A DNA stretch of 21,487 nt, from positions 1 through 21,487 of the forward strand of contig NEEC01000431.1 of the NCBI GenBank assembly GCA_002189035.1. The letters run 5' to 3'. This document shows positions 1 through 21,487 of the stretch, in pieces. The stretch is from Utricularia gibba. Taxonomy: Eukaryota; Streptophyta; Magnoliopsida; Lamiales; Lentibulariaceae. Each line of letters starts with the position of its first letter. Positions within the stretch are counted from its first letter, which is position 1. A program made the position numbers and the translations under genes. The notes under the pieces are model-generated. The model did no database searches. It had not been told where the DNA came from and saw only the letters and a program-made list of their open reading frames with translations.

Positions 1-139
1 CCTACATGGTTTTTCAAGGAACCGCTTCTCGTTTTGTGGCGGCCAGTCTCGCTGGGAAATTGGTCCTTTACCCCGATTTTGTATGGCTCATGAGGTCAAC
101 CGAATGCAAATCGATTAAAAAAAATGATGCATTTGTTTT
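1..139 (+). repeat. B-type unit, partial (window edge)
   Basis: Only the last part of the unit is in the window. It has GGGAAATTGG (A units have GGGAACTTGG), CCTTTACCCC instead of CCTTGACCCC, GATTTTGTATGG instead of GATTCTGTATGG, and ACCGAATGC instead of ACCGGATGC. These four alleles travel together in most other B units, so the unit is assigned to B although its diagnostic first part is missing. Confidence 0.8.
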
Positions 140-449
140 AAATTGCGATATCATGTGCACCCCACATTTTTTCAACAACTTACTTTATACTTGGGAGGCG
201 GTCTTGGGGTGCAGCTGGAACGGGACAAAGGTAAGGTTTGGCTTGCGCCGAGAGTTAGTTGTAGCCCGAAATAAAGTGATGTATTTATTATCGTTCGGTT
301 TTCGGGGGCTGCCTACATGGTTTTTCAAGGAACCGCTTCTCGTTTTGTGGCGGCCAGTCTCGCTGGGAACTTGGTCCTTGACCCCGATTCTGTATGGCTC
401 ATGAGGTCAACCGGATGGAAATCGATTAAAAAAAATGATGCATTTGTTT
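140..449 (+). repeat. A-type unit with the rare GGATGG variant (copy 1)
   Basis: Near its end ACCGGATGGAAATCG (GGATGG at 413-418) replaces ACCGGATGCAAATCG. The only other copy with this change is 5447-5761. Both lie just after a B unit and just before an A' unit. It also lost three bases in CCCACATGATTTT, leaving CCCACATTTT at about 167. Confidence 0.85.
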
Positions 450-761
450 AAATTGCGATATCATGTGCACCCCACATGATTTTTCAACAACTTACTTTAT
501 ACTTGAGGAGGCGGTCTTGGGTGCAGCTGGAACGGGACAAAGGTAAGGTTTGGCTTGCGGCGAGAGTTAGTTGTAGCCCGGCAAATAAAGTGATGTATTT
601 TTTATCGTTCGGTTTTCGGGGCTGCCTACATGGTTTTTCACGGAACCGCTTCTCGTTTTGTGGCGGCCAGTCTCGCTGGGAACTTGGTTTTGACCCCGAT
701 TCTGTATGGCTCATGAGGTCAACCGGATGCAAATCGATTAAAAAAATGATGCATTTGTTTT
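450..761 (+). repeat. A'-type unit, directly before a B unit
   Basis: Carries both A' marks: GTATTTTTTATCG instead of GTATTTATTATCG, and CTTGGTTTTGACC instead of CTTGGTCCTTGACC. Elsewhere it is A-like (GCAGCTGGAAC, GCCCGGCAAATA). The next unit (762-1071) is B. Confidence 0.8.
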
Positions 762-1071
762 AAATTGCGATATCACGTGCACCCACATGATTTTTTCAAC
801 TTACTTTATACTTGGGGAGGCGGTCTTGGGGTGCACCTTGAACGGGACAAAGGTAAGGTTTGGCTTGCGCCGAGAGTTAGTTATAGCCCCACAAATAAAG
901 TGATAAATTTGATATCGTTCGGTTTTCGGGGGCTGCCTACATGGTTTTTCAAGGAACCGCTTCTCGTTTTGTGGCGGCCAGTCTCGCTGGGAAATTGGTC
1001 CTTACCCCGATTTTGTATGGCTCATGAGGTCAACCGATGCAAATCGATTAAAAAAAATGATGCATTTGTTT
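762..1071 (+). repeat. B-type unit, with A alleles at one internal patch
   Basis: B alleles: CTTGGGGAGG, GCACCTTGAAC, GTTATAGCCCC, GTGATAAATTTGATATCG, GGGAAATTGG, GATTTTGTATGG. At the CCTACATGG anchor it has the A allele GGGGGCTGCC instead of GGGACTACC, so a short A patch lies between B alleles. A three-base loss shortens TTCAACAACTTAC to TTCAACTTAC near 798, and one G of the final ACCGGATGC is lost. An A' unit precedes it at 450-761. Confidence 0.85.
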
Positions 1072-1695
1072 AAATTGCGATATCATGTGCCCCACATGAT
1101 TTTTTCAACAACTTACTTTATACTTGAGGAGGCGGTCTTGGGGTGCAGCTGGAACGGGACAAAGGTAAGGTTTGGCTTGCGGCGAGAGTTAGTTGTAGCC
1201 CGGCAAATAAAGTGATGTATTTTTTATCGTTCGGTTTTCGGGGCTGCCTACATGGTTTTTCAAGGAACCGCTTCTCGTTTTGGCGGCCAGTCTCGCTGGG
1301 AAACTTGGTCCTTGACCCCGATTCTGTATGGCTCATGAGGTCAACCGGATGCAAATCATTAAAAAAAATGATGCATTTGTTTAAATTGCGATATCACGTG
1401 CACCCCACATGATTTTTTCAACAACTTACTTTATACTTGAGGAGGCGGTCTTGGGGTGCAGCTGGAACGGGACAAAGGTAAGGTTTGGCTTGCGGCGAGA
1501 GTTAGTTGTAGCCCGGCAAATAAAGTGATGTTTTTTATCGTTCGGTTTTCGGGGCTGCCTACATGGTTTTTCAAGGAACCGCTTCTCGTTTTGTGGCGGC
1601 CAGTCTCGCTGGGAACTTGGTCCTTGACCCCGATTCTGTATGGCTCATGAGGTCAACCGGATGCAAATCGATTAAAAAAAATGATGCATTTGTTT

Positions 1696-2003
1696 AAATT
1701 GCGATCATGTGCACCCCACATGATTTTTCAACAACTTACTTTATACTTGAGGAGGCGGTCTTGGGGTGCAGCTGGAACGGGACAAAGGTAAGGTTTGGCT
1801 TGCGCGAGAGTTAGTTGTAGCCCGGCAAATAAAGTGATGTATTTATTATCGTTCGGTTTTCGGGGCTGCCTACATGGTTTTTCAGGAACCGCTTCTCGTT
1901 TTGTGGCGGCCAGTCTCGCTGGGAACTTGGTTTGACCCCGATTCTGTATGGCTCATGAGGTCAACCGGATGCAAATCGATTAAAAAAAATGATGCATTTG
2001 TTT
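1696..2003 (+). repeat. A'-type unit with one mark only
   Basis: Has CTTGGTTTGACC (the GGTTTTTGACC mark shortened by indels) but the ordinary GTATTTATTATCG. The two units before it, ending at 1695, carry the TATTTTTTATCG-type mark instead (GTATTTTTTATCG near 1217, GTTTTTTATCG near 1530) with ordinary GGTCCTTGACC. The two A' marks are thus separated here. It precedes the B unit at 2004. Confidence 0.65.
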
Positions 2004-2317
2004 AAATTGCGATATGTGCACCCCACATGATTTTTTTCAACAACTTACTTTATACTTGGGGAGGCGGTCTTGGGGTGCACCTTGAACGGGACAAAGGTAA
2101 GGTTTGGCTTGCGCCGAGAGTTAGTTATAGCCCCCACAAATAAAGTGATAAATTTGATATCGTTCGGTTTTCGGGGACTACCTACATGGTTTTTCAAGGA
2201 ACCGCTTCTCGTTTTGTGGCGGCCAGTCTCGCTGGGAAATTGGTCCTTTACCCCGATTTTGTATGGCTCATGAGGTCAACCGATGCAAATCGATTAAAAA
2301 AAATGATGCATTTGTTT
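2004..2317 (+). repeat. B-type unit
   Basis: Nearly the full B allele set: T7 after CATGA, CTTGGGGAGG, GCACCTTGAACGGG, GTTATAGCCCCCAC, GTGATAAATTTGATATCG, GGGGACTACC, GGGAAATTGG, CCTTTACCCC, GATTTTGTATGG. The start reads GATATGTGCACC, which looks like GATATGACGTGCACC with an internal loss. It follows a half-marked A' unit (1696-2003) and lies four units after the previous B. Confidence 0.88.
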
Positions 2318-2327
2318 AAATTGCGAT

Positions 2328-2348
2328 ATCATGTGCACCCCACATGAT
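2328..2348 (+). other. Perfect 8-bp inverted repeat next to a T-run (example of a per-unit feature)
   Basis: ATCATGTG, a five-base spacer CACCC, then CACATGAT, followed at once by a run of T. In units with CATGTG the two arms are perfectly complementary; in units with CACGTG (for example 13255-13275) there is one mismatched pair. The dyad is visible in nearly every unit. Whether it forms a hairpin or binds a protein is unknown. Confidence 0.6.
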
Positions 2349-4187
2349 TTTTTCAACAACTTACTTTATACTTGAGGAGGCGGTCTTGGGGTGCAGCTGG
2401 AACGGGACAAAGGTAAGGTTTGGCTTGCGCCGAGAGTTAGTTGTAGCCCGGCAAATAAAGTGATGTATTTATTATCGTTCGGTTTTCGGGGCTGCCTACA
2501 TGGTTTTTCAAGGAACCGCTTCTCGTTTTGTGGCGGCCAGTCTCGCTGGGAACTTGGTCCTTGACCCCGATTCTGTATGGCTCATGAGGTCAACCGGATG
2601 CAAATCGATTAAAAAAAATGATGCATTTGTTTAAATTGCGATATCACGTGCACCCCACATGATTTTTCAACAACTTACTTTATACTTGAGGAGGCGGTCT
2701 TGGGGTGCAGCTGGAACGGGACAAAGGTAAGGTTTGGCTTGCGCCGAGAGTTAGTTGTAGCCCGACAAATAAAGTGATGTATTTTTATCGTTCGGTTTTC
2801 GGGGGCTGCCTACATGGTTTTTCAAGGAACCGCTTCTCGTTTTGTGGCGGCAGTCTCGCTGGGAACTTGGTCCTTGACCCCGATTCTGTATGGCTCATGA
2901 GGTCAACCGGATGCAAATCGATTAAAAAAAATGATGCATTTGTTTAAATTGCGATATCACGTGCACCCCACATGATTTTTTCAACAACTACTTTATACTT
3001 GAGGAGGCGTCTTGGGGTGCAGCTGGAACGGGACAAAGGTAAGGTTTGGCTTGCGCGAGAGTTAGTTGTAGCCCCCAAATAAAGTGATTTATTATCGTTC
3101 GGTTTTCGGGGCTACATGGTTTTTCAAGGAACCGCTTCTCGTTTTGTGGCGGCCAGTCTCGCTGGGAACTTGGTCCTTGACCCCGATTCTGTATGGCTCA
3201 TGAGGTCAACCGGATGCAAATCGATTAAAAAAAATGATGCATTTGTTTAAATTGCGATATCACGTGCACCCCACATGATTTTTTCAACAACTTACTTTAT
3301 ACTTGAGAGGCGGTTTTGGGTGCACTGGAACGGGACAAAGGTAAGGTTTGGCTTGCGCCGAGAGTTAGTTGTAGCCCGGCAAATAAAGTGATGTATTTAT
3401 TATCGTTCGGTTTTCGGGGGCTGCCTACATGGTTTTTCAAGGAACCGCTTCTCGTTTTGTGGCGGCCAGTCTCGCTGGGAACTTGGTCCTTGACCCCGAT
3501 TCTGTATGGCTCATGAGGTCAACCGGATGCAAATCGATTAAAAAAAATGATGCATTTGTTTAAATTGCGATATCATGTGCACCCCACATGATTTTTTCAA
3601 CAACTTACTTTATACTTGAGGAGGCGGTCTTGGGGTGCAGCTGGAACGGGACAAAGGTAAGGTTTGGCTTGCGCCGAGAGTTAGTTGTAGCCCGACAAAA
3701 AAGTGATGTATTTATTATCGTTCGGTTTTCGGGGGCTGCCTACATGGTTTTTCAAGGAACCGCTTCTCGTTTTGTGGCGGCCAGTCTCGCTGGGAACTTG
3801 GTCCTTGACCCCGATTCTGTATGGCTCATGAGGTCAACCGGATGCAAATCGATTAAAAAAAATGATGCATTTGTTTAAATTGCGATATCACGTGCACCCC
3901 ACATGATTTTTTCAACAACTTACTTTATACTTGAGGAGGCGGTCTTTGGGTGCAGCTGAACGGGACAAAGGTAAGGTTTGGCTTGCGAGAGTTAGTTGTA
4001 GCCCGGCAAATAAAGTGATGTATTTATTATCGTTCGGTTTTCGGGGGCTGCCTACATGGTTTTTCAAGGAACCGCTTCTCGTTTTGTGGCGGCCAGTCTC
4101 GCTGGGAACTTGGTCCTTGACCCCGATTCTGTATGGCTCATGAGGTCAACCGGATGCAAATCGATTAAAAAAATGATGCATTTGTTT

Positions 4188-4499
4188 AAATTGCGATATG
4201 ACGTGCACCCACATGATTTTTTTCAACAACTTACTTTATACTTGGGAGGCGGTCTTGGGGTGCACCTTGAACGGGACAAAGGTAAGGTTTGGCTTGCGCC
4301 GAGAGTTAGTTATAGCCCACAAATAAAGTGATAAATTTGATATCGTTCGGTTTTCGGGGCTACCTACATGGTTTTTCAAGGAACCGCTTCTCGTTTTGTG
4401 GCGGCCAGTCTCGCTGGGAAATTGGTCCTTTACCCCGATTCTGTATGGCTCATGAGGTCAACCGAATGCAAATCGATTAAAAAAATGATGCATTTGTTT
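4188..4499 (+). repeat. B-type unit
   Basis: Starts with the B form GATATGACGTG. It carries T7, CTTGGGAGG (one G lost), GCACCTTGAAC, GTTATAGCCCAC, GTGATAAATTTGATATCG, GGGGCTACC (first changed base A-like, second B-like), GGGAAATTGG and CCTTTACCCC. It has the A allele GATTCTG near 4440, then the B allele ACCGAATGC. The unit before it has no A' marks, so the B-A-A' order is broken here. Confidence 0.85.
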
Positions 4500-4815
4500 A
4501 AATTGCGATATCATGTGCACCCCACATGATTTTTTCAACAACTTACTTTATACTTGAAGAGGCGGTCTTGGGGTGCAGCTGGAACGGGACAAAGGTAAGG
4601 TTTGGCTTGCGCGAGAGTTAGTTGTAGCCCGACAAATAAAGTGATGTATTTATTATCGTTCGGTTTTCGGGGGCTGCCTACATGGTTTTTCAAGGAACCG
4701 CTTCTCGTTTTGTGGCTGCCAGTCTCGCTGGGGAACTTGGTCCTTGACCCCGATTCTGTATGGCTCATGAGGTCAACCGGATGCAAATCGATTAAAAAAA
4801 ATGATGCATTTGTTT

Positions 4816-5131
4816 AAATTGCGATATCATGTGCACCCCACATGATTTTTTTCAACAACTTACTTTATACTTGAGGAGGCGGTCTTGGGGTGCAGCTGGA
4901 ACGGGACAAAGGTAAGGTTTGGCTTGCGGCGAGAGTTAGTTGTAGCCCGGCAAATAAAGTGATGTATTTTTTATCGTTCGGTTTTCGGGGCTGCCTACAT
5001 GGTTTTTCAAGGAACCGCTTCTCGTTTTGTGGCGGCCAGTCTCGCTGGGAACTTGGTTTTTGACCCCGATTCTGTATGGCTCATGAGGTCAACCGGATGC
5101 AAATCGATTAAAAAAAATGATGCATTTGTTT
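4816..5131 (+). repeat. A'-type unit, directly before a B unit
   Basis: Both marks present: GTATTTTTTATCG near 4962 and CTTGGTTTTTGACC near 5052. It uses CATGTG and GCAGCTGG. The next unit (5132-5446) is the most complete B unit. Confidence 0.82.
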
Positions 5132-5446
5132 AAATTGCGATATGACGTGCACCCCACATGATTTTTTTCAACAACTTACTTTATACTTGGGGAGGCGGTC
5201 TTGGGGTGCACCTTGAACGGGACAAAGGTAAGGTTTGGCTTGCGCCGAGAGTTAGTTTAGCCCCACAAATAAAGTGATAAATTTGATATCGTTCGGTTTT
5301 CGGGACTACCTACATGGTTTTTCAAGGAACCGCTTCTCGTTTTGTGGCGGCCAGTCTCGCTGGGAAATTGGTCCTTTACCCCGATTTTGTATGGCTCATG
5401 AGGTCAACCGAATGCAAATCGATTAAAAAAAATGATGCATTTGTTT
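5132..5446 (+). repeat. B-type unit, most complete allele set
   Basis: All the sites checked are B except one deletion: GATATGACGTG, T7, CTTGGGGAGG, GCACCTTGAAC, GTTTAGCCCCAC (an A lost from GTTATAG), GTGATAAATTTGATATCG, GGGACTACC, GGGAAATTGG, CCTTTACCCC, GATTTTG, ACCGAATGC. It is the best available B standard in the window. It is preceded by an A' unit (4816-5131) and followed by the A unit with the rare GGATGG variant. Confidence 0.9.
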
Positions 5447-5761
5447 AAATTGCGATATCATGTGCACCCCACATGATTTTTTCAACAACTTACTTTATAC
5501 TTGAGGAGGCGGTCTTGGGGTGCAGCTGGAACGGGACAAAGGTAAGGTTTGGCTTGCGGCGAGAGTTAGTTGTAGCCCGGCAAATAAAGTGATGTATTTA
5601 TTATCGTTCGGTTTTCGGGGGCTGCCTACATGGTTTTTCAAGGAACCGCTTCTCGTTTTGTGGCGGCCAGTCTCGCTGGAACTTGGTCCTTGACCCCGAT
5701 TCTGTATGGCTCATGAGGTCAACCGGATGGAAATCGATTTAAAAAAATGATGCATTTGTTT
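5447..5761 (+). repeat. A-type unit with the rare GGATGG variant (copy 2)
   Basis: GGATGG at 5725-5730 matches the copy at 413-418. Flanking order is the same (B, this unit, A', B). One A of the following A-run is a T (CGATTTAAAAAAATG), a private change. It suggests that the stretches 1 to about 1070 and 5310 to about 6390 descend from one block. Confidence 0.85.
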
Positions 5762-6075
5762 AAATTGCGATATCATGTGCACCCCACATGATTTTTTCAA
5801 CAACTTACTTTATACTTGAGGAGGCGGTCTTGGGGTGCAGCTGGAACGGGACAAAGGTAAGGTTTGGCTTGCGGCGAGAGTTAGTTGTAGCCCGGCAAAT
5901 AAAGTGATGTATTTTTTATCGTTCGGTTTTCGGGGGCTGCCTACATGGTTTTTCAGGAACCGCTTCTCGTTTTGTGGCGGCCAGTCTCGCTGGGAACTTG
6001 GTTTTGACCCCGATTCTGTATGGCTCATGAGGTCAACCGGATGCAAATCGATTAAAAAAAATGATGCATTTGTTT
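5762..6075 (+). repeat. A'-type unit, directly before a B unit
   Basis: GTATTTTTTATCG near 5910 and CTTGGTTTTGACC near 6000, CATGTG at its start. With the B unit before (5132-5446) and the A unit between them (5447-5761) it completes one clear B-A-A' set; the B of the next set starts at 6076. Confidence 0.82.
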
Positions 6076-6394
6076 AAATTGCGATATATGACGTGCACCC
6101 CACATGATTTTTTTCAACAACTTACTTTATACTTGGGGAGGCGGTCTTGGGGTGCACCTTGAACGGACAAAGGTAAGGTTTGGCTTGCGCCGAGAGTTAG
6201 TTATAGCCCCCACAAATAAAGTGATAAATTTATATCGTTCGGTTTTCGGGGACTACCTACATGGTTTTTCAAGGAACCGCTTCTCGTTTTGTGGCGGCCA
6301 GTCTCGCTGGGAAATTGGTCCTTTACCCCGATTCTGTATGGCTCATGAGGTCAACCGGATGCAAATCGATTAAAAAAAAATGATGCATTTGTTT
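6076..6394 (+). repeat. B-type unit with duplicated AT at its start
   Basis: B alleles throughout the first two thirds: GATATATGACGTG (extra AT), T7, CTTGGGGAGG, GCACCTTGAACGGAC, GTTATAGCCCCCAC, GTGATAAATTTATATCG, GGGGACTACC, GGGAAATTGG, CCTTTACCCC. The end is A-like (GATTCTG and ACCGGATGC), so it is a B-to-A mosaic with the switch near 6330. At 319 bp and with A9 it is the longest B unit. Confidence 0.86.
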
Positions 6395-6706
6395 AAATTG
6401 CGATATCATGTGCACCCCACATGATTTTTTCAACAACTTACTTTATACTTGAGGAGGCGGTCTTGGGTGCAGCTGGAACGGGACAAAGGTAAGGTTTGGC
6501 TTGCGGCGAGAGTTAGTTGTAGCCCGCAAATAAAGTGATGTATTTATTATCGTTCGGTTTTCGGGGCTGCCTACATGGTTTTTCAAGGAACCGCTTCTCG
6601 TTTTGTGGCGGCCAGTCTCGCTGGAACTTGGTCCTTGACCCCGATTCTGTATGGCTCATGAGGTCAACCGGATGCAAATCGATTAAAAAAAATGATGCAT
6701 TTGTTT

Positions 6707-7021
6707 AAATTGCGATATCACGTGCACCCCACATGATTTTTTCAACAACTTACTTTATACTTGAGGAGGCGGTCTTGGGGTGCAGCTGGAACGGGACAAA
6801 GGTAAGGTTTGGCTTGCGGCGAGAGTTAGTTGTAGCCCGGCAAATAAAGTGATGTATTTTTTATCGTTCGGTTTTCGGGGGCTGCCTACATGGTTTTTCA
6901 GGAACCGCTTCTCGTTTTGTGGCGGCCAGTCTCGCTGGGAACTTGGTTTTTGACCCCGATTCTGTATGGCTCATGAGGTCAACCGGATGCAAATCGATTA
7001 AAAAAAATGATGCATTTGTTT
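6707..7021 (+). repeat. A'-type unit, directly before the hybrid unit
   Basis: GTATTTTTTATCG near 6855 and CTTGGTTTTTGACC near 6951. It begins with CACGTG rather than CATGTG. It closes a second adjacent B-A-A' set (6076-7021) and precedes the overwritten B at 7022. Confidence 0.8.
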
Positions 7022-7335
7022 AAATTGCGATATCACGTGCACCCCACATGATTTTTTCAACAACTTACTTTATACTTGAGGAGGCGGTCTTGGGGTGCAC
7101 CTTGAACGGGACAAAGGTAAGGTTTGGCTTGCGCCGAGTTAGTTGTAGCCCCACAAATAAAGTGATGTATTTATATCGTTCGGTTTTCGGGGGCTGCCTA
7201 CATGGTTTTTCAAGGAACCGCTTCTCGTTTTGTGGCGGCCAGTCTCGCTGGGGAACTTGGTCCTTGACCCCGATTCTGTATGGCTCATGAGGTCAACCGG
7301 ATGCAAATCGATTAAAAAAAATGATGCATTTGTTT
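7022..7335 (+). repeat. Hybrid A/B unit in the expected B position
   Basis: Carries only two B alleles, GCACCTTGAACGGG (near 7098) and GCCCCACAAATA (near 7150). The start (GATATCACGTG, CTTGAGGAGG) and end (GGGGGCTGCC, GGGAACTTGG, GATTCTG, ACCGGATGC) are A. It reads TGATGTATTTATATCG, midway between the A and B forms, and has lost four bases (GAGA) in CCGAGAGTTAG. It sits three units after one B and four before the next, and an A' unit precedes it, which is where the periodicity predicts a B. I infer a B unit largely overwritten by A sequence. Confidence 0.65.
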
Positions 7336-8266
7336 AAATTGCGATATCACGTGCACCCCACATGATTTTTCAACAACTTACTTTATACTTGAGGAGGCGG
7401 TCTTGGGGTGCAGCTGGAACGGGACAAAGGTAAGGTTTGGCTTGCGCGAGAGTTAGTTGTAGCCCGGCAAATAAAGTGATGTATTTATATCGTTCGGTTT
7501 TCGGGGGCTGCCTACATGGTTTTTCAAGGAACCGCTTCTCGTTTTGTGGCGGCCAGTCTCGCTGGGAACTTGGTCCTTGACCCCGATTCTGTATGGCTCA
7601 TGAGGTCAACCGGATGCAAATCGATTAAAAAAAAATGATGCATTTGTTTAAATTGCGATATCACGTGCACCCCACATGATTTTTTTCAACAACTTACTTT
7701 ATACTTGAGGAGGCGGTCTTGGGGTGCAGCTGGAACGGGACAAAGGTAAGGTTTGGCTTGCGCCGAGAGTTAGTTTGTAGCCCGACAAATAAAGTGATGT
7801 ATTTATTATCGTTCGGTTTTCGGGGCTGCCTACATGGTTTTTCAAGGAACCGCTTCTCGTTTTGTGGCGGCCAGTCTCGCTGGGAACTTGGTCCTTGACC
7901 CCGATTCTGTATGGCTCATGAGGTCAACCGGATGCAAATCGATTAAAAAAAATGATGCATTTGTTTAAATTGCGATATCATGTGCACCCCACATGATTTT
8001 TTCAACAACTTACTTTATACTTGAGGAGGCGGTCTTGGGTGCACTGGAACGGGACAAAGGTAAGGTTTGGCTTGCGCCGAGAGTTAGTTGTAGCCCAAAT
8101 AAAGTGATGTATTTATTATCGTTCGGTTTTCGGGGGCTGCCTACATGGTTTTTCAAGGAACCGCTTCTCGTTTTGTGGCGCCAGTCTCGCTGGGAACTTG
8201 GTCCTTGACCCCGATTTCTGTATGGCTCATGAGGTCAATCGATTAAAAAAAATGATGCATTTGTTT

Positions 8267-8583
8267 AAATTGCGATATGACGTGCACCCCACATGATTTT
8301 TTTCAACAACTTACTTTATACTTGGGGAGGCGGTCTTGGGGTGCACCTTGAACGGGACAAAGGTAAGGTTTGGCTTGCGCCGAGAGTTAGTTGTAGCCCC
8401 ACAAATAAAGTGATAAATTTGATATCGTTCGGTTTTCGGGGACTACCTACATGGTTTTTCAAGGAACCGCTTCTCGTTTTGTGGCGGCCAGTCTCGCTGG
8501 GAAATTGGTCCTTTTACCCCGATTTTGTATGGCTCATGAGGTCAACCGATGCAAATCGATTAAAAAAAATGATGCATTTGTTT
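8267..8583 (+). repeat. B-type unit
   Basis: GATATGACGTG, T7, CTTGGGGAGG, GCACCTTGAACGGG, GCCCCACAAATA, GTGATAAATTTGATATCG, GGGGACTACC, GGGAAATTGG, CCTTTTACCCC (one extra T), GATTTTGTATGG. The A allele GTTGTAG replaces GTTATAG. The unit just before it ends with an 11-bp deletion (near 8238). Confidence 0.88.
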
Positions 8584-8896
8584 AAATTGCGATATCATGT
8601 GCACCCCACATGATTTTTTCAACAACTTACTTTATACTTGAGGAGGCGTCTTGGGGTGCAGCTGGAACGGGACAAAGGTAAGGTTTGGCTTGCGCGAGAG
8701 TTAGTTGTAGCCCGCAAATAAAGTGATGTATTTATTATCGTTCGGTTTTCGGGGGCTGCCTACATGGTTTTTCAAGGAACCGCTTCTCGTTTTGTGGCGG
8801 CCAGTCTCGCTGGGAACTTGGTCCTTGACCCCGATTCTGTATGGCTCATGAGGTCAACCGGATGCAAATCGATTAAAAAAAATGATGCATTTGTTT

Positions 8897-9207
8897 AAAT
8901 TGCGATATCGTGCACCCCACATGATTTTTCAACAACTTACTTTATACTTGAGGAGGCGGTCTTGGGGTGCAGCTGGAACGGGACAAAGGTAAGGTTTGGC
9001 TTGCGCCGAGAGTTAGTTGTAGCCCGCAAATAAAGTGATGTATTTTTTATCGTTCGGTTTTCGGGGGCTGCCTACATGGTTTTTCAAGGAACCGCTTCTC
9101 GTTTTGTGGCGGCCAGTCTCGCTGGGAACTTGGTTTTGACCCCGATTCTGTATGGCTCATGAGGTCAACCGGATGCAAATCGATTAAAAAAAATGATGCA
9201 TTTGTTT
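8897..9207 (+). repeat. A'-type unit, directly before the last B unit
   Basis: GTATTTTTTATCG near 9041 and CTTGGTTTTGACC near 9130. The start is shortened to GATATCGTGC. It lies two units after the B at 8267 and directly before the B at 9208, the expected order. Confidence 0.8.
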
Positions 9208-9519
9208 AAATTGCGATATCACGTGCACCCCACATGATTTTTTTCAACAACTTACTTTATACTTGGGAGGCGGTCTTGGGGTGCACCTTGAACGGACAAA
9301 GGTAAGGTTTGGCTTGCGCCGAGAGTTAGTTATAGCCCCAAATAAAGTGATGTATTTATATCGTTCGGTTTTCGGGGGCTACCTACATGGTTTTTCAAGG
9401 AACCGCTTCTCGTTTTGTGGCGGCCAGTCTCGCTGGGAAATTGGTCCTTTACCCCGATTTTGTATGGCTCATGAGGTCAACCGAATGCAAATCGATTAAA
9501 AAAAATGATGCATTTGTTT
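9208..9519 (+). repeat. B-type unit with an A-like centre
   Basis: The B alleles T7, CTTGGGAGG, GCACCTTGAACGGAC and GTTATAGCCCCA are followed by the A-like GTGATGTATTTATATCG, then GGGGGCTACC (mixed), and then the B alleles GGGAAATTGG, CCTTTACCCC, GATTTTG and ACCGAATGC. It starts with A-type GATATCACGTG. This is the last B unit; none follows for almost 12 kb. It is preceded by an A' unit at 8897-9207. Confidence 0.85.
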
Positions 9520-10320
9520 AAATTGCGATATCATGTGCACCCCACATGATTTTTTTCAACAACTTACTTTATACTTGAGGAGGCGGTCTTGGGGTGCAGC
9601 TGGAACGGGACAAAGGTAAGGTTTGGCTTGCGGCGAGAGTTAGTTGTAGCCCGGCAAATAAGTGATGTATTTATTATCGTTCGGTTTTCGGGGCTCCTAC
9701 ATGGTTTTTCAAGGAACCGCTTCTCGTTTTGTGGCGGCCAGTCTCGCTGGGAACTTGGTCCTTGACCCGATTCTGTATGGCTCATGAGGTCAACCGGATG
9801 CAAATCGATTAAAAAAAATGATGCATTTGTTTAAATTGCGATATCATGTGCACCCCACATGATTTTTTCAACAACTTACTTTATACTTGAGGAGGCGGTC
9901 TTGGGGTGCAGCTGGAACGGGACAAAGGTAAGGTTTGGCTTGCGCCGAGAGTTAGTTGTAGCCCGGCAAATAAAGTGATGTATTTATTATCGTTCGGTTT
10001 TCGGGGGCTGCCTACATGGTTTTTCAAGGAACCGCTTCTCGTTTTGTGGCGGCCAGTCTCGCTGGGAACTTGGTCCTTGACCCCGATTCTGTATGGCTCA
10101 TGAGGTCAACCGGATGCAAATCGATTAAAAAAAATGATGCATTTGTTTAAATTGCGATATCGTGCACCCCACATGATTTTTTTCAACAACTTACTTTATA
10201 CTTGAGGAGGCGGTCTTGGGGTGCAGCTGGAACGGGACAAAGGTAAGGTTTGGCTTGCGCCGAGAGTTAGTTGTAGCCCCAAATAAAGTGATATTTTTAT
10301 CGTTCGGTTTTCGGGGGCTG

Positions 10321-10613
10321 CCTACATGGTTTTTCAAGGAACCGCTTCTCGTTTTGTGGCGGCCAGTCTCGCTGGGAACTTGGTCCTTGACCCCGATTCT
10401 GTATGGCTCATGAGGTCAACCGGATGCAAATCGATTAAAAAAAATGATGCATTTGTTTAAATTGCGATATCACGTGCACCCCACATGATTTTTTTCAACA
10501 ACTTACTTTATACTTGAGGAGCGGGACAAAGGTAAGGTTTGGCTTGCGCCGAGAGTTAGTTGTAGCCCGACAAATAAAGTGATGTATTTATTATCGTTCG
10601 GTTTTCGGGGCTG
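10321..10613 (+). repeat. Shortest unit (293 bp) at the domain boundary
   Basis: CTTGAGGAG runs straight into CGGGACAAAGG at about 10521. The 23 bases that normally separate them, including the GTGCA(G/C)... segment that distinguishes the two domains, are missing. All units with GTGCAGCTGG lie to the left and none to the right. There is no obvious microhomology at the join. Confidence 0.85.
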
Positions 10614-13087
10614 CCTACATGGTTTTTCAAGGAACCGCTTCTCGTTTTGTGGCGGCCAGTCTCGCTGGGAACTTGGTCCTTGACCCCGATTCTGTATGGC
10701 TCATGAGGTCAACCGGATGCAAATCGATTAAAAAAATGATGCATTTGTTTAAATTGCGATATCACGTGCACCCCACATGATTTTTCAACAACTTACTTTA
10801 TACTTGAGGAGGCGGTCTTGGGTGCAAACGGGACAAAGGTAAGGTTTGGCTTGCGCCGAGAGTTAGTTGTAGCCGGCAAATAAAGTGATGTATTTATTAT
10901 CGTTCGGTTTTCGGGGGCTGCCTACATGGTTTTTCAAGGAACCGCTTCTCGTTTTGTGGCCCAGTCTCGCTGGGAACTTGGTCCTTGACCCCGATTCTGT
11001 ATGGCTCATGAGGTCAACCGGATGCAAATCGATTAAAAAAAATGATGCATTTGTTTAAATTGCGATATCACGTGCACCCCATGATTTTTTCAACAACTTA
11101 CTTTATACTTGAGGAGGCGGTCTTGGGGTGCACCTGGAACGGGACAAAGGTAAGGTTTGGCTTGCGCCGAGAGTTAGTTGTAGCCCGACAAATAAAGTGA
11201 TGTATTTATTATCGTTCGGTTTTCGGGGCTGCCTACATGGTTTTTCAAGGAACCGCTTCTCGTTTTGTGGCGGCCAGTCTCGCTGGGAACTTGGTCCTTG
11301 ACCCCGATTCTGTATGGCTCATGAGGTCAACCGGATGCAAATCGATTAAAAAAATGATGCATTTGTTTAAATTGCGATATCACGTGCACCCCACATGATT
11401 TTTTCAACAACTTACTTTATACTTGAGGAGGCGGTCTTGGGTGCACCTGAACGGACAAAGGTAAGGTTTGGCTTGCGCCGAGAGTTAGTTGTAGCCCGAC
11501 AAATAAAGTGATGTATTTATTATCGTTCGGTTTTCGGGGCTGCCTACATGGTTTTTCAAGGAACCGCTTCTCGTTTTGTGGCGCCAGTCTCGCTGGGAAC
11601 TTGGTCCTTGACCCCGATTCTGTATGGCTCATGAGGTCAACCGGATGCAAATCGATTAAAAAAAATGATGCATTTGTTTAAATTGCGATATCGTGCACCC
11701 CACATGATTTTTTTCAACAACTTACTTTATACTTGAGGAGGCGGTCTTGGGTGCACTGGAACGGGACAAAGGTAAGGTTTGGCTTGCCCGAGAGTTAGTT
11801 GTAGCCCGACAAATAAAGTGATGTATTTATTATCGTTCGGTTTTCGGGGCTGCCTACATGGTTTTTCAAGGAACCGCTTCTCGTTTTGTGGCGGCCAGTC
11901 TCGCTGGGAACTTGGTCCTTGACCCCGATTCTGTATGGCTCATGAGGTCAACCGGATGCAAATCGATTAAAAAAAATGATGCATTTGTTTAAATTGCGAT
12001 ATCACGTGCACCCCACATGATTTTTTCAACAACTTACTTTATACTTGAGGAGGCGGTCTTGGGTGCACTGAACGGGACAAAGGTAAGGTTTGGCTTGCGC
12101 CGAGAGTTAGTTGTAGCCCGACAAATAAAGTGATGTATTTATTATCGTTCGGTTTTCGGGGGCTGCCTACATGGTTTTTCAAGGAACCGCTTCTCGTTTT
12201 GTGGCGGCCAGTCTCGCTGGGAACTTGGTCCTTGACCCCGATTCTGTATGGCTCATGAGGTCAACCGGATGCAAATCGATTAAAAAAAATGATGCATTGT
12301 TTAAATTGCGATATCACGTGCACCCCACATGATTTTTTCAACAACTTACTTTATACTTGAGGAGGCGGTCTTGGGGTGCACCTGAACGGGACAAAGGTAA
12401 GGTTTGGCTTGCGCCGAGAGTTAGTTGTAGCCCGACAAATAAAGTGATGTATTTATTATCGTTCGGTTTTCGGGGGCTGCCTACATGGTTTTTCAAGGAA
12501 CCGCTTCTCGTTTTGTGGCGGCCAGTCTCGCTGGGAACTTGGTCCTTGACCCCGATTCTGTATGGCTCATGAGGTCAACGGATGCAAATCGATTAAAAAA
12601 AATGATGCATTTGTTTAAATTGCGATATCACGTGCACCCCACATGATTTTTTCAACAACTTACTTTATACTTGAGGAGGCGGTCTTGGGTGCACTTGGAA
12701 CGGGACAAAGGTAAGGTTTGGCTTGCGCCGAGAGTTAGTTGTAGCCCGACAAATAAAGTGATGTATTTATTATCGTTCGGTTTTCGGGGTGCCTACATGG
12801 TTTTTCAAGGAACCGCTTCTCGTTTTGTGGCGGCCAGTCTCGCTGGGAACTTGGTCCTTGACCCCGATTCTGTATGGCTCATGAGGTCAACCGGATGCAA
12901 ATCGATTAAAAAAAATGATGCATTTGTTTAAATTGCGATATCACGTGCACCCCACATGATTTTTTCAACAACTTACTTTATACTTGAGGAGGCGGTCTTG
13001 GGGTGCACTGGAACGGGACAAAGGTAAGGTTTGGCTTGCGCCGAGAGTTAGTTGTAGCCCGACAAATAAAGTGATGTATTTATTATC

Positions 13088-13104
13088 GTTCGGTTTTCGG
13101 GGGC
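13088..13104 (+). other. CENP-B-box-like 17-mer (example of a per-unit feature, 7 of 9 core positions)
   Basis: GTTCGGTTTTCGGGGGC compared with the mammalian CENP-B box NTTCGNNNNANNCGGGN matches TTCG and the last GGG. It differs at the fixed A (T here) and at the first base of CGGG (G here). It is found only in copies with five G; four-G copies are one base shorter and fit less well. The match may be chance, and no binding is claimed. Confidence 0.25.
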
Positions 13105-13106
13105 TG

Positions 13107-13421
13107 CCTACATGGTTTTTCAAGGAACCGCTTCTCGTTTTGTGGCGGCCAGTCTCGCTGGGAACTTGGTCCTTGACCCCGATTCTGTATGGCTCATGAG
13201 GTCAACCGGATGCAAATCGATTAAAAAAAATGATGCATTTGTTTAAATTGCGATATCACGTGCACCCCACATGATTTTTTCAACAACTTACTTTATACTT
13301 GAGGAGGCGGTCTTGGGGTGCACTGGAACGGGACAAAGGTAAGGTTTGGCTTGCGCCGAGAGTTAGTTGTAGCCCGACAAATAAAGTGATGTATTTATTA
13401 TCGTTCGGTTTTCGGGGGCTG
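13107..13421 (+). repeat. Reference A-type unit (315 bp)
   Basis: A clean copy that can serve as the family standard. Landmarks in order: CCTACATGG at the start; GTGGCGGCCAGTCTCGCTGG; GACCCCGATTCTGTATGG; TCATGAGG; palindrome AATCGATT (13215-13222); A8 (13223-13230); ATGCAT; GATATCACGTG; T6 (13275-13280); CTTGAGGAGGCGG; GTGCACTGGAACGGG; CAAAGGTAAGG (13334-13344); GCCGAGAGTTAG; AATAAA (13380-13385); TTCGGTTTTCGGGGG. By hand count it has 63 C, 82 G (46% G+C) and 17 CpG. It appears identical to the preceding unit, 12792-13106. Stops in every frame and no recognisable RNA gene motifs make it non-coding. Confidence 0.9.
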
Positions 13422-13735
13422 CCTACATGGTTTTTCAAGGAACCGCTTCTCGTTTTGTGGCGGCCAGTCTCGCTGGGAACTTGGTCCTTGACCCCGATTC
13501 TGTATGGCTCATGAGGTCAACCGGATGCAAATCGATTAAAAAAAATGATGCATTTGTTTAAATTGCGATATCACGTGCACCCCACATGATTTTTTTCAAC
13601 AACTTACTTTATACTTGAGGAGGCGGTCTTGGGGTGCACTGAACGGGACAAAGGTAAGGTTTGGCTTGCGCCGAGAGTTAGTTGTAGCCCGACAAATAAA
13701 GTGATGTATTTATTATCGTTCGGTTTTCGGGGCTG

Positions 13736-14363
13736 CCTACATGGTTTTTCAAGGAACCGCTTCTCGTTTTGTGGCGGCCAGTCTCGCTGGGAACTTGGTC
13801 CTTGACCCCGATTCTGTATGGCTCATGAGGTCAACCGGATGCAAATCGATTAAAAAAAATGATGCATTTGTTTAAATTGCGATATCACGTGCACCCCACA
13901 TGATTTTTTCAACAACTTACTTTATACTTGAGGAGGCGGTCTTGGGGTGCACTGGAACGGGACAAAGGTAAGGTTTGGCTTGCGCCGAGAGTTAGTTGTA
14001 GCCCGACAAATAAAGTGATGTATTTATTATCGTTCGGTTTTCGGGGCTGCCTACATGGTTTTTCAAGGAACCGCTTCTCGTTTTGTGGCGGCCAGTCTCG
14101 CTGGGAACTTGGTCCTTGACCCCGATTCTGTATGGCTCATGAGGTCAACCGGATGCAAATCGATTAAAAAAAATGATGCATTTGTTTAAATTGCGATATC
14201 ACGTGCACCCCACATGATTTTTTCAACAACTTACTTTATACTTGAGGAGGCGGTCTTGGGGTGCACTGGAACGGGACAAAGGTAAGGTTTGGCTTGCGCC
14301 GAGAGTTAGTTGTAGCCCGACAAATAAAGTGATGTATTTATTATCGTTCGGTTTTCGGGGCTG
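13736..14363 (+). repeat. Second pair of adjacent identical units (314 bp)
   Basis: Units 13736-14049 and 14050-14363 read the same by eye, both with the four-G form CGGGGCTGCC. They differ from the pair at 12792-13421 only by that one G. Together these form the most homogeneous 1.6 kb of the window. Confidence 0.78.
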
Positions 14364-17300
14364 CCTACATGGTTTTTCAAGGAACCGCTTCTCGTTTTGT
14401 GGCGGCCAGTCTCGCTGGGAACTTGGTCCTTGACCCCGATTCTGTATGGCTCATGAGGTCAACCGGATGCAAATCGATTAAAAAAAATGATGCATTTGTT
14501 TAAATTGCGATATCACGTGCACCCCACATGATTTTTTCAACAACTTACTTTATACTTGAGGAGGCGGTCTTGGGTGCACTTGGAACGGGACAAAGGTAAG
14601 GTTTGGCTTGCGCCGAGAGTTAGTTGTAGCCCGGCAAATAAAGTGATGTATTTATTATCGTTCGGTTTTTCGGGGCTGCCTACATGGTTTTTCAAGGAAC
14701 CGCTTCTCGTTTTGTGGCGCCAGTCTCGCTGGGAACTTGGTCCTTGACCCCGATTCTGTATGGCTCATGAGGTCAACCGGATGCAAATCGATTAAAAAAA
14801 ATGATGCATTTGTTTAAATTGCGATATCACGTGCACCCCACATGATTTTTTTCAACAACTTACTTTATACTTGGGAGGCGGTCTTGGGGTGCACCTGAAC
14901 GGGACAAAGGTAAGGTTTGGCTTGCGCCGAGAGTTAGTTGTAGCCCGACAAATAAAGTGATGTATTTATTATCGTTCGGTTTTCGGGGTGCCTACATGGT
15001 TTTTCAAGGAACCGCTTTCGTTTTTGTGCGGCCAGTCTCGCTGGGAACTTGGTCCTTGACCCCGATTCTGTATGGCTCATGAGGTCAACCGGATGCAAAT
15101 CGATTAAAAAAAATGATGCATTTGTTTAAATTGCGATATCACGTGCACCCCACATGATTTTTCAACAACTTACTTTATACTTGAGGAGGCGGTCTTGGGC
15201 ACCTGAACGGACAAAGGTAAGGTTTGGCTTGCGCCGAGAGTTAGTTGTAGCCCGACAAATAAAGTGATGTATTTATTATCGTTCGGTTTTCGGGGCTGCC
15301 TACATGGTTTTTCAAGGAACCGCTTCTCGTTTTGTGGCGGCCAGTCTCGCTGGGAACTTGGTCCTTGACCCCGATTCTGTATGGCTCATGAGGTCAACCG
15401 GATGCAAATCGATTAAAAAAAATGATGCATTTGTTTAAATTGCGATATCACGTGCACCCCACATGATTTTTTCAACAACTTACTTTATACTTGAGGAGGC
15501 GGTCTTGGTGCACTGGAACGGGACAAAGGTAAGGTTTGGCTTGCGCCGAGAGTTAGTTGTAGCCCGGCAAATAAAGTGATGTATTTATTATCGTTCGGTT
15601 TTCGGGGGCTGCCTACATGGTTTTTCAAGGAACCGCTTCTCGTTTTGTGGCGGCCAGTCTCGCTGGGAACTTGGTCCTTGACCCCGATTCTGTATGGCTC
15701 ATGAGGTCAACCGGATGCAAATCGATTAAAAAAAATGATGCATTTGTTTAAATTGCGATATCGTGCACCCCACATGATTTTTTCAACAACTTACTTTATA
15801 CTTGAGGAGGCGGTCTTGGGTGCACCTGAACGGGACAAAGGTAAGGTTTGGCTTGCGCCGAGAGTTAGTTGTAGCCCGACAAATAAAGTGATGTATTTAT
15901 TATCGTTCGGTTTTCGGGGGCTGCCTACATGGTTTTTCAAGGAACCGCTTCTCGTTTTGTGGCGGCCAGTCTCGCTGGGAACTTGGTCCTTGACCCCGAT
16001 TCTGTATGGCTCATGAGGTCAACCGGATGCAAATCGATTAAAAAAAATGATGCATTTGTTTAAATTGCGATATCACGTGCACCCCACATGATTTTTTCAA
16101 CAACTTACTTTATACTTGAGGAGGCGGTCTTGGGTGCACCTGAAGGACAAAGGTAAGGTTTGGCTTGCGCCGAGAGTTAGTTGTAGCCCGGCAAATAAAG
16201 TGATGTATTTATTATCGTTCGGTTTTCGGGGGCTGCCTACATGGTTTTTCAAGGAACCGCTTCTCGTTTTGTGGCGGCCAGTCTCGCTGGGAACTTGGTC
16301 CTTGACCCCGATTCTGTATGGCTCATGAGGTCAACCGGATGCAAATCGATTAAAAAAAATGATGCATTTGTTTAAATTGCGATATCACGTGCACCCCACA
16401 TGATTTTTTCAACAACTTACTTTATACTTGAGGAGGCGGTCTTGGGTGCACTGAACGGGACAAAGGTAAGGTTTGGCTTGCCGAGAGTTAGTTGTAGCCC
16501 GACAAATAAAGTGATGTATTTATTATCGTTCGGTTTTCGGGGGCTGCCTACATGGTTTTTCAAGGAACCGCTTCTCGTTTTGTGGCGGCCAGTCTCGCTG
16601 GGAACTTGGTCCTTGACCCCGATTCTGTATGGCTCATGGTCAACCGGATGCAAATCGATTAAAAAAAATGATGCATTTGTTTAAATTGCGATATCACGTG
16701 CACCCACATGATTTTTTCAACAACTTACTTTATACTTGAGGAGGCGGTCTTGGGGTGCACTGGAACGGGACAAAGGTAAGGTTTGGCTTGCGCCGAGAGT
16801 TAGTTGTAGCCCGACAAATAAAGTGATGTATTTATTATCGTTCGGTTTTCGGGGGCTGCCTACATGGTTTTTCAAGGAACCGCTTCTCGTTTTGTGGCGG
16901 CCAGTCTCGCTGGGAACTTGGTCCTTGACCCCGATTCTGTATGGCTCATGAGGTCAACCGGATGCAAATCGATTAAAAAAAATGATGCATTTGTTTAAAT
17001 TGCGATATCACGTGCACCCCACATGATTTTTTCAACAACTTACTTTATACTTGAGGAGGCGGTCTTGGGTGCACCTGGAACGGGACAAAGGTAAGGTTTG
17101 GCTTGCGCGAGAGTTAGTTGTAGCCCCACAAATAAAGTGATGTATTTATTATCGTTCGGTTTTTCGGGGCTGCCTACATGGTTTTTCAAGGAACCGCTTC
17201 TCGTTTTGTGGCGGCAGTCTCGCTGGGAACTTGGTCCTTGACCCCGATTCTGTATGGCTCATGAGGTCAACCGGATGCAAATCGATTAAAAAAATGATGC

Positions 17301-20300
17301 ATTTGTTTAAATTGCGATATCACGTGCACCCCACATGATTTTTTCAACAACTTACTTTATACTTGAGGAGGCGGTCTTGGGGTGCACTGGAACGGGACAA
17401 AGGTAAGGTTTGGCTTGCGCCGAGAGTTAGTTGTAGCCCGACAAATAAAGTGATGTATTTATTATCGTTCGTTTTTCGGGGCTGCCTACATGGTTTTTCA
17501 AGGAACCGCTTCTCGTTTTGTGGCGGCCAGTCTCGCTGGGAACTTGGTCCTTGACCCCGATTCTGTATGGCTCATGAGGTCAACCGGATGCAAATCGATT
17601 AAAAAAAATGATGCATTTGTTTAAATTGCGATATCACGTGCACCCCACATGATTTTTCAACAACTTACTTTATACTTGAGGAGGCGGTCTTGGGGTGCAC
17701 TGGAACGGGACAAAGGTAAGGTTTGGCTTGCGCCGAGAGTTAGTTGTAGCCCGGCAAATAAAGTGATGTATTTATTATCGTTCGGTTTTCGGGGGCTGCC
17801 TACATGGTTTTTCAAGGAACCGCTTCTCGTTTTGTGGCCCAGTCTCGCTGGGAACTTGGTCCTTGACCCCGATTCTGTATGGCTCATGAGGTCAACCGGA
17901 TGCAAATCGATTAAAAAAATGATGCATTTGTTTAAATTGCGATATCACGTGCACCCCACATGATTTTTTCAACAACTTACTTTATACTTGAGGAGGCGGT
18001 CTTGGGGTGCACCTGAACGGGACAAAGGTAAGGTTTGGCTTGCGCCGAGAGTTAGTTGTAGCCCGACAATAAAGTGATGTATTTATATCGTTCGGTTTTC
18101 GGGGGCTGCCTACATGGTTTTTCAAGGAACCGCTTCTCGTTTTGTGGCGGCCAGTCTCGCTGGGAACTTGGTCCTTGACCCCGATTCTGTATGGCTCATG
18201 AGGTCAACCGGATGCAAATCGATTAAAAAAAATGATGCATTTGTTTAAATTGCGATATCACGTGCACCCCACATGATTTTTTCAACAACTTACTTTATAC
18301 TTGAGGAGGCGGTCTTGGGGTGCACTGGAACGGGACAAAGGTAAGGTTTGGCTTGCGCCGAGAGTTAGTTGTAGCCCGGCAAATAAAGTGATGTATTTAT
18401 TATCGTTCGGTTTTCGGGCTGCCTACATGGTTTTTCAAGGAACCGCTTCTCGTTTTGTGGCGGCCAGTCTCGCTGGGAACTTGGTCCTTGACCCCGATTC
18501 TGTATGGCTCATGAGGTCAACCGGATGCAAATCGATTAAAAAAAATGATGCATTTGTTTAAATTGCGATATCACGTGCACCCCACATGATTTTTTCAACA
18601 ACTTACTTTATACTTGAGGAGGCGGTCTTGGGGTGCACTTGGAACGGGACAAAGGTAAGGTTTGGCTTGCTTAGTTGTAGCCCGACAAATAAAGTGATGT
18701 ATTTATTATCGTTCGGTTTTCGGGGCTGCCTACATGGTTTTTCAAGGAACCGCTTCTCGTTTTGTGGCGGCCAGTCTCGCTGGGAACTTGGTCCTTGACC
18801 CCGATTCTGTATGGCTCATGAGGTCAACCGGATGCAAATCGATTAAAAAAATGATGCATTTGTTTAAATTGCGATATCACGTGCACCCCACATGATTTTT
18901 TCAACAACTTACTTTATACTTGAGGAGGCGGTCTTGGGGTGCACTGGAACGGGACAAAGGTAAGGTTTGGCTTGCGCCGAGAGTTAGTTGTAGCCCGGCA
19001 AATAAAGTGATGTATTTATTATCGTTCGGTTTTCGGGGGCTGCCTACATGGTTTTTCAAGGAACCGCTTCTCGTTTTGTGGCGCCAGTCTCGCTGGGAAC
19101 TTGGTCCTTGACCCCGATTCTGTATGGCTCATGAGGTCAACCGGATGCAAATCGATTAAAAAAAATGATGCATTTGTTTAAATTGCGATATCACGTGCAC
19201 CCCACATGATTTTTTCAACAACTTACTTTATACTTGAGGAGGCGGTCTTGGGTGCACTTGAACGGGACAAAGGTAAGGTTTGGCTTGCGCCGAGAGTTAG
19301 TTGTAGCCCCACAAATAAAGTGATGTATTTATTATCGTTCGGTTTTCGGGGCTGCCTACATGGTTTTTCAAGGAACCGCTTCTCGTTTTGTGGCGGCCAG
19401 TCTCGCTGGGAACTTGGTCCTTACCCCGATTCTGTATGGCTCATGAGGTCAACCGGATGCAAATCGATTAAAAAAATGATGCATTTGTTTAAATTGCGAT
19501 ATCACGTGCACCCCACATGATTTTTTCAACAACTTACTTTATACTTGAGAGGCGGTCTTGGGTGCACTGGAACGGGACAAAGGTAAGGTTTGGCTTGCGC
19601 CGAGAGTTAGTTGTAGCCGGCAAATAAAGTGATGTATTTATTATCGTTCGGTTTTCGGGGCTGCCTACATGGTTTTTCAAGGAACCGCTTCTCGTTTTGG
19701 CGGCCAGTCTCGCTGGGAACTTGGTCCTTGACCCCGATTCTGTATGGCTCATGAGGTCAACCGGATGCAAATCGATTAAAAAAAATGATGCATTTGTTTA
19801 AATTGCGATATCACGTGCACCCCACATGATTTTTTCAACAACTTACTTTATACTTGAGGAGGCGGTCTTGGGGTGCACTGGAACGGACAAAGGTAAGGTT
19901 TGGCTTGCCCGAGAGTTAGTTGTAGCCCGGCAAATAAAGTGATGTATTTATTATCGTTCGGTTTTCGGGGCTGCCTACATGGTTTTTCAAGGAACCGCTT
20001 CTCGTTTTGTGGCGGCCAGTCTCGCTGGAACTTGGTCCTTGACCCCGATTCTGTATGGCTCATGAGGTCAACCGGATGCAAATCGATTAAAAAAAATGAT
20101 GCATTTGTTTAAATTGCGATATCACGTGCACCCCACATGATTTTTTCAACAACTTACTTTATACTTTGAGGAGGCGGTCTTGGGTGCACTGGAACGGGAC
20201 AAAGGTAAGGTTTGGCTTGCGCCGAGAGTTAGTTGTAGCCCGGCAAATAAAGTGATGTATTTATTATCGTTCGGTTTTCGGGGCTGCCTACATGGTTTTT

Positions 20301-21360
20301 CAAGGAACCGCTTCTCGTTTTGTGGCGCCAGTCTCGCTGGGAACTTGGTCCTTGACCCCGATTCTGTATGGCTCATGAGGTCAACCGGATGCAAATCGAT
20401 TAAAAAAAAATGATGCATTTGTTTAAATTGCGATATCACGTGCACCCCACATGATTTTTTCAACAACTTACTTTATACTTGAGGAGGCGTCTTGGGGTGC
20501 ACCTGAACGGGACAAAGGTAAGGTTTGGCTTGCGCGAGAGTTAGTTGTAGCCCGCAAATAAAGTGATGTATTTATTATCGTTCGGTTTTCGGGGCTGCCT
20601 ACATGGTTTTTCAAGGAACCGCTTCTCGTTTTGTGGCGCCAGTCTCGCTGGAACTTGGTCCTTGACCCCGATTCTGTATGGCTCATGAGGTCAACCGGAT
20701 GCAAATCGATTAAAAAAAATGATGCATTTGTTTAAATTGCGATATCACGTGCACCCCACATGATTTTTTCAACAACTTACTTTATACTTGAGGAGGCGGT
20801 CTTGGGGTGCACTTGAACGGGACAAAGGTAAGGTTTGGCTTGCGCCGAGAGTTAGTTGTAGCCCGACAAATAAAGTGATGTATTTATTATCGTTCGGTTT
20901 TCGGGGGCTGCCTACATGGTTTTTCAAGGAACCGCTTCTCGTTTTGGGCGGCCAGTCTCGCTGGGAACTTGGTCCTTGACCCGATTCTGTATGGCTCATG
21001 AGGTCAACCGGATGCAAATCGATTAAAAAAAATGATGCATTTGTTTAAATTGCGATATCATGTGCACCCCACATGATTTTTTCAACAACTTACTTTATAC
21101 TTGAGGAGGCGTCTTGGGGTGCACTGGAACGGGACAAAGGTAAGGTTTGGCTTGCGCCGAGAGTTAGTTGTAGCCCGACAAATAAAGTGATGTATTTATT
21201 ATCGTTCGGTTTTCGGGGGCTGCCTACATGGTTTTTCAAGGAACCGCTTCTCGTTTTGTGGCGGCCAGTCTCGCTGGGAACTTGGTCCTTGACCCCGATT
21301 CTGTATGGCTCATGAGGTCAACCGGATGCAAATCGATTAAAAAAAAATGATGCATTTGTT

Positions 21361-21487
21361 TAAATTGCGATATCACGTGCACCCCACATGATTTTTTTCA
21401 ACAACTTACTTTATACTTGAGGAGGCGGTCTTGGGGTGCACCTTGAACGGGACAAAGGTAAGTTTGGCTTGCGCCGAGAGTTAGTTG
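21361..21487 (+). repeat. Last partial unit with two B-type alleles
   Basis: It has T7 after CATGA and GTGCACCTTGAACGGG, both typical of B, but A-type CACGTG, CTTGAGGAGG and GTTAGTTG. It resembles the hybrid at 7022-7335 at these sites. The window ends before the most diagnostic positions (TGATAAATTTGATATC, GGGAAATTGG), so the class is open. Confidence 0.5.

Follow-up and report, generated by a model that had tools for sequence, protein, structure and literature searches.

The window analysed here is the whole of contig C299 (NEEC01000431.1, 21,487 nucleotides) of the carnivorous plant Utricularia gibba, and it consists of a single tandem array of a 313-bp satellite (Tandem Repeats Finder: positions 1-21487, period 313, 68.8 copies, 96% matches), in the first half of which a divergent monomer, B, recurs among plain A-type monomers. 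Our reading, held at a probability of roughly 80%, is that the array is built on an A-A-B trimer (~0.94 kb) with slips, and that this part adjoins a homogenised stretch of A monomers only. The satellite, the B monomer, the trimer base, the slips and the change of domain are all directly observed. The pattern of B is a real higher-order repeat (HOR) of the ordinary kind, irregular and mostly with B at every third unit; the HOR that an earlier note on this DNA had proposed is in this respect backed by the similarity of units at fixed offsets, by the clustering of B and by tests of its spacing.

The B monomer is split from A by 12 diagnostic columns; these were taken from clear B units of the window itself and are therefore a consistency check. 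In the unit frame of the earlier note these columns place B at units 1, 4, 8, 15, 18, 21, 28 and 31 (spacings 3, 4, 7, 3, 3, 7, 3), the positions that the note had listed, and clustering performed without the diagnostic columns puts B at identical places. That frame splits B in two; if the units are instead cut at the conserved ATGATGCATTTG core, each B forms a single monomer of 310-319 bp, with starts at 744, 1986, 4170, 5114, 6058, 8249 and 9190. The divergence between B and A is 3.8%, compared with 0.8% within B and 0.75% within A. The tight seven-unit distances described earlier were recovered (2174, 2182, 2185 and 2190 bp, previously given as 2180, 2182, 2185 and 2190), and for a variant A', left undefined in the note and said to precede six B positions, one fitting mark would be a GGTTT- type variant directly ahead of a B position, present in units 3, 17, 20, 23 and 30, and in unit 7 by eye, which makes six. 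The restriction of the pattern to approximately the first 10 kb likewise stands: in units 34-68 no B is called, apart from a weak signal in unit 62, only 2 substitution columns are informative, and no period stands out clearly, the smallest p being 0.050 (offset 2). The features of the window are as follows, with the evidence in brackets.

1 to 10316, forward strand: domain 1, the higher-order-repeat part, units 1-33 of the earlier frame (similarity, diagnostic columns, clustering)
1 to 125, forward strand: first-half remnant of a B monomer that the contig start truncates, 3/3 first-half B columns; end approximate (diagnostic columns)
744 to 1053, forward strand: B monomer 1, 310 bp (clustering)
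1986 to 2299, forward strand: B monomer 2, 314 bp (clustering, diagnostic columns)
4170 to 4481, forward strand: B monomer 3, 312 bp (clustering)
5114 to 5428, forward strand: B monomer 4, 315 bp (clustering)
6058 to 6376, forward strand: B monomer 5, 319 bp (clustering)
7010 to 7324, forward strand: hybrid monomer, 2/8 second-half and 0/3 first-half B columns; ends approximate (diagnostic columns)
8249 to 8565, forward strand: B monomer 6, 317 bp (clustering)
9190 to 9501, forward strand: B monomer 7, 312 bp, partial, 2/6 second-half and 3/3 first-half B columns
10317 to 10609, forward strand: unit 34, 293 bp, ~20 bp short, where domain 1 gives way to domain 2
10610 to 21487, forward strand: domain 2, homogeneous plain units, no B called and no clear higher-order period

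Single-base indels are frequent in this array, and for this reason unit alignments were scored by substitutions alone, with indels ignored. Specifically, measured against their own consensus, units 34-68 average 2.86 indel events each, compared with 0.91 substitutions (about 3:1), an excess that is read as residual long-read error. Similarity was tested against 2000 shuffles of unit order at 16 offsets, so that the p values are nominal, and units outside 230-380 bp were omitted from the similarity tests (4 of 31 in C300, 1 of 32 in C203, 3 of 29 in C260 and 2 of 24 in C301, contigs that are discussed below). When units 1-34 are clustered with no classes preset, the resulting string of cluster labels is ABC ABBC ABBBBBC ABC ABC ABC BBBC ABC ABBB; the block is therefore a trimer with a varying number of plain units, and it stands in tandem as ABC ABC ABC. 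Across the same units substitutions amount to 1.46% at offset 3, versus 2.45% at offset 1. All B spacings fall within the set {3, 4, 7}, for which p is 0.0003 with 8 random places in 33, the set having been chosen post hoc.

The earlier note went further, and described a true 7-unit HOR in which a trimer and a tetramer strictly alternate and which is now decaying. It expected unit identity to rise at offsets 3, 4 and 7, and in units 1-33 similarity does go up at offset 3 (z 2.9, p 0.003) and at offset 7 (p 0.032), the latter in keeping with a 7-unit block, as are the one 3-4 pair and the two 7-unit gaps among the B spacings. At offset 4, however, there is no rise (p 0.49), nor is there at 11 (p 0.75) or 14 (p 0.33), while offsets 10 (p 0.017) and 13 (p 0.025) do rise; a regular 3/4 period is not what these offsets describe. 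Strict alternation has p 0.12 even in the series as filled in by the earlier note, with both sevens split, and once a B at position 24 is counted there are three consecutive spacings of 3 (15-18-21-24).

Further evidence comes from contigs related to the window, of which C298, C204 and C39 were used at full length and others in part (C297, 8.8 of 24.8 kb; C300, 10 of 14.7 kb; C8, 18 of 63.9 kb; and for the unit tests C203, 10 of 27.0 kb, C260, 10 of 43.6 kb, and C301, the first 8 of 17.9 kb). One genome search gave 361 matches, the best of which were listed. The base period of three is clearest in C204 (reverse strand), where clustering assigns B to 20 of the 55 monomers and successive B monomers stand three units apart in 13 of 19 cases (2.9 expected on average under the null, p 5e-5). 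In this contig offsets 3 and 6 stand out (z 6.0 and 4.6), substitutions are 1.46% at offset 3 versus 2.76% at offset 1, and the ABC block occurs at least 4 times in a row. That C204 is mostly a trimer also speaks against the 7-unit proposal.

The tail of C297 lies in register with the window, with 2.30 substitutions per unit at offset 5 (23 units) versus 3.60-6.62 at the 24 other offsets listed; with weak calls counted, its B units are spaced 3, 3, 4, 7, 3, 3, 3. The best placement of the C298 tail is at the window start (offset 65, with 2.7 substitutions per unit; the next best offset has 3.5, with 10 units each), and this tail carries B blocks at the places of window units 4 and 8. At the place of B monomer 2, the in-register tail of C298 is also B, and C297 has A in the second-half columns and B in the first-half ones; at the place of B monomer 4, C297 again has A in the second-half columns, with B in 2/3 of the first-half columns. 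These tails may be duplicates or overlaps of one locus, contig numbering being a hint of neighbourhood only. In the parts of other contigs, B was found in 0 of 27 usable units of C300, and in one or two blocks each in C203, C260 and C301.

The in-register contig C297 also bears on the two B units that the earlier note had supplied to complete its alternation. A weak B at 24 is poorly represented in the window itself, where unit 23 has 2/8 and unit 24 0/3 B columns, but unit 28 of C297, at the place of the window's hybrid unit 23, has 9/9 second-half B columns, so that this position is backed by C297. A hidden B at 11 finds no such backing: units 10 and 11 of the window lack B columns altogether, as do units 15 and 16 of C297. 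Taken with the flat offsets, the run of threes and the trimer of C204, strict alternation is an over-reading of a base period of three, and a decaying 7-unit HOR is quite unlikely. The decay that it invoked is indistinguishable from consensus error, given that indels outnumber substitutions by ~3:1 and that the B marks of the window and C297 differ in both directions (window units 7 and 17, for instance, have full second-half B columns and the matching C297 places none).

Several observations weigh against the trimer with slips that we prefer. There are just 7 B monomers in the window, or 8 if the truncated one at its start is counted, and the fine pattern therefore rests on few events. In C204 the diagnostic columns give a spacing of 3 in 5 of 11 cases for strong calls and in 10 of 15 with weak calls, and the spacing breaks up across the last ~15 units. 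The strong calls of C297 alone yield 4, 7, 3, 6, so that its match to the window order needs the weak ones; C297 and the window differ on B at several in-register places; and C298 has five scattered weak B calls outside its tail. Finally, if the tails of C297 and C298 overlap one locus, they are not independent copies.

Some of these points would also be expected of an assembly artefact, in which noisy long reads from several arrays or from both haplotypes would have been merged, leaving a B pattern pieced together from their consensus. The predominance of indel events (~3:1) is in keeping with this, as are the disagreement of B marks between in-register contigs and the state of the related contigs, which are 14.7-43.6 kb long where the length was seen and are broken within the satellite. 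The B columns, however, are co-inherited substitutions and not indels, an identical B forms a trimer in C204 with another slip pattern, and the spacing order recurs in C297 (weak calls included), with two B blocks in C298; an artefact as the source of the pattern is therefore unlikely.

As to how the A-A-B trimer with slips arose, a B monomer (~3.8% from A) would have been amplified jointly with two adjacent A-type monomers as a block of ~0.94 kb. Later unequal exchange between misaligned arrays would spread such blocks and add or delete plain units, giving a local period of 4 or 7, and conversion toward A, or exchange, would wipe out B marks in places. Unequal exchange and conversion are the likely cause, by analogy with known satellite HORs: both are among the processes named for satellites (PMC8122249, PMC10199239), and amplification with homogenisation of satellite blocks is described in the former.

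Human alpha-satellite resembles the window in that blocks of monomers are amplified together and single arrays hold mixed periods. More specifically, the TRASH paper (PMC10199239) lists human arrays with interspersed periods, namely 7 and 11 on chromosome 13 and 7, 8, 11 and 15 on chromosome 8, and mixed periods are thus not in themselves unusual, the earlier note having called a decaying trimer/tetramer alternation a less usual stage. The alpha-satellite HOR differs in degree, having monomers that are ~70% identical and adjacent blocks that are 97-100% identical (PMC8122249), whereas the monomers of the window differ by less than 4% and the period is irregular. Among plants, CEN178 of Arabidopsis and Palv156 of Populus are satellites that, as in the window, form HORs (PMC10199239, PMC12046899), with monomers of 178 and 156 bp versus 313 bp here, the latter apparently derived from a dimer. 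Palv156 has been placed in centromeres with CENH3 data (PMC12046899).

The two halves of the 313-bp unit (~157 bp each) are indeed related, with an alignment score of 44 versus a shuffled mean of 21.6 (p 0.001), and the unit looks like an old dimer of ~157 bp, that is, of nucleosome scale, as centromeric satellites are. A close relation of size is found within the same family (Lentibulariaceae), in Gn7c161 of Genlisea nigrocaulis, whose 161 bp come near half of 313 bp; no other tandem repeat is as abundant in the 86-Mb genome of that carnivorous plant, and it is centromere-associated by fluorescence in situ hybridisation (PMC4542322). Its two published primers, the only part of it that was compared, give no clear match to the 313-bp satellite (p 0.43 and 0.04). 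The window has no Rfam family at gathering score, and a ribosomal spacer or another RNA-linked repeat was rejected as a candidate, with no such match in the window or in three further loci (L012, L014, L016). The array of the window is most likely structural, heterochromatic DNA, a role that we infer.

The satellite extends well beyond the window. In the genome analysed (100.09 Mb, 516 contigs; published as 101 Mb, records NEEC01000001-NEEC01000518, PMC6982007) a 20-base core has 3,984 exact matches (2,303 forward, 1,681 reverse), equivalent to ~1.25 Mb at one per unit, a count that misses units with a changed core and may be inflated by redundant contigs. The plastid contig of this genome, C516, carries an open rbcL frame that matches the full Pfam model, and the mitochondrial contig C515 has cox1 in two pieces, which marks the genome as that of a plant. 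Family arrays elsewhere are dimeric, tetrameric or contain an amplified copia fragment. C8 is a tetramer, with substitutions of 3.38% at offset 4 versus 8.5-9.0% at offsets 1-3 (8.96% at 1), and with peaks at offsets 4, 8, 11 and 15, of which 11 and 15 are visible slips; a 4.5-kb piece of C7 has periods of 628 and 1257 bp. A single family in a ~100-Mb genome thus presents periods of 2, 3 and 4 together with a block that bears a retroelement, and the birth of HORs could therefore be followed within one small genome. The HOR of the window is itself ordinary, and the main interest lies in an abundant satellite in a carnivorous plant with a tiny genome. No earlier report of the 313-bp satellite was found in the literature listings searched, the main U. 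gibba genome paper being outside that search.

The B lineage can also be traced outside the window. If up to 2 mismatches are allowed, a B-specific 25-mer matches the genome at 34 places, of which 30 are exact; 17 of these 30 lie in C15, C39, C477 and C513, contigs whose arrays bear the copia fragment. In pieces of C39, C477 and C513 the B end motif is carried by 13 of 107 usable monomers, of which, at a margin of 0.8 points, 1 is nearer B (C39:14909, 2.3% from B versus 3.3% from A), 11 lie between and 1 is nearer A. The B lineage is therefore older than the window trimer, or shared beyond it. B need not have arisen in the window array and may belong to an old lineage that entered it, since monomers with its end motif, most of them at similar distances from A and B, occur in the copia-bearing arrays, which we take to be older. 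That B is a recent chance variant of the window array only is doubtful, given the 13 of 107 monomers that carry its end motif. In these contigs (L013-L016) monomers with the end motif are often the second full unit after the copia fragment, and near the end of C39 nearly every unit has the motif. The fragment itself, ~1.18 kb of copia type (Retrotran_gag_2), recurs with the satellite in C39, C477 and C513 (L012-L016) and in C15, with steps between listed neighbouring copies of 3.11-3.15 kb (eight times) and 3.76-3.78 kb (four times), and otherwise longer; it is a piece of a retroelement captured and amplified inside a larger repeat. At the start of C477 (L057, C477:3001-8000) there is a Ty3-type element, with frames for gag and reverse transcriptase, at a distance of a few kb from the satellite.

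A further account of the pattern would be functional, with B as a protein-binding or nucleosome-phasing site held at every third unit by selection. The apparent origin of the unit from a ~157-bp dimer, near nucleosome length (p 0.001), is in its favour, but no B is called in the other half of the window, the B end motif is rare (34 matches of the 25-mer versus the 3,984 of the core) and other arrays have other periods. Nothing measured requires selection on the spacing of B, and such a function is very improbable.

The location of the family raises the question of centromeres. Satellite repeats are reported to be absent from putative U. gibba centromeres (PMC8333044), a claim on which an abundant satellite bears. 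The exact 20-mer core has no match in C1-C6, since the list of core matches, which gives the first places in contig-number order, starts at C7; a second core behaves alike (first at C7), and diverged copies could escape both. Telomere repeats occur at each end of C3 and of C4, but only at the start of C1 and C2 as assembled here; by exact core the satellite is therefore absent from C3 and C4, though centromeres may differ from one chromosome to another. For C1-C6 this agrees with the published statement, and there is ~1 Mb of satellite in other contigs. Those 313-bp arrays that were read are in short contigs. In C213, however, a contig of 3.70 Mb that starts with telomere repeat, the final 16.6 kb or more consist of a 315-bp sister satellite, ~72% identical, and this satellite end could be either a centromere or the subtelomere of the far side. 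The satellite may thus have a centromere role in some chromosomes; the broader idea, that in a subset of U. gibba chromosomes the centromeric DNA consists of the 313/315-bp superfamily, with each array at a different stage of building its own period (2, 3, 4 or the copia block), is a tentative one, and if true would mean that the chromosomes of U. gibba are of two kinds, with and without satellite.

Other repeats were seen along the way. The 315-bp sister satellite was located at C213:3688001-3704653 (L058, L059), with a dimer period of 617 bp there, and in C262 (L020). A 331-bp satellite stretch is 100% identical (rounded) across the consecutively numbered C474-C477, which suggests redundant or duplicated contigs. 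Open frames in C302:1-3000 (L018) recur 2,091 bp apart, and C302 therefore holds a long repeat of ~2.09 kb. A satellite with a period of 336 bp ends the 6.8-Mb contig C451 (L061), and the first 3 kb of C239 (L024) consist of one with a 340-bp period.

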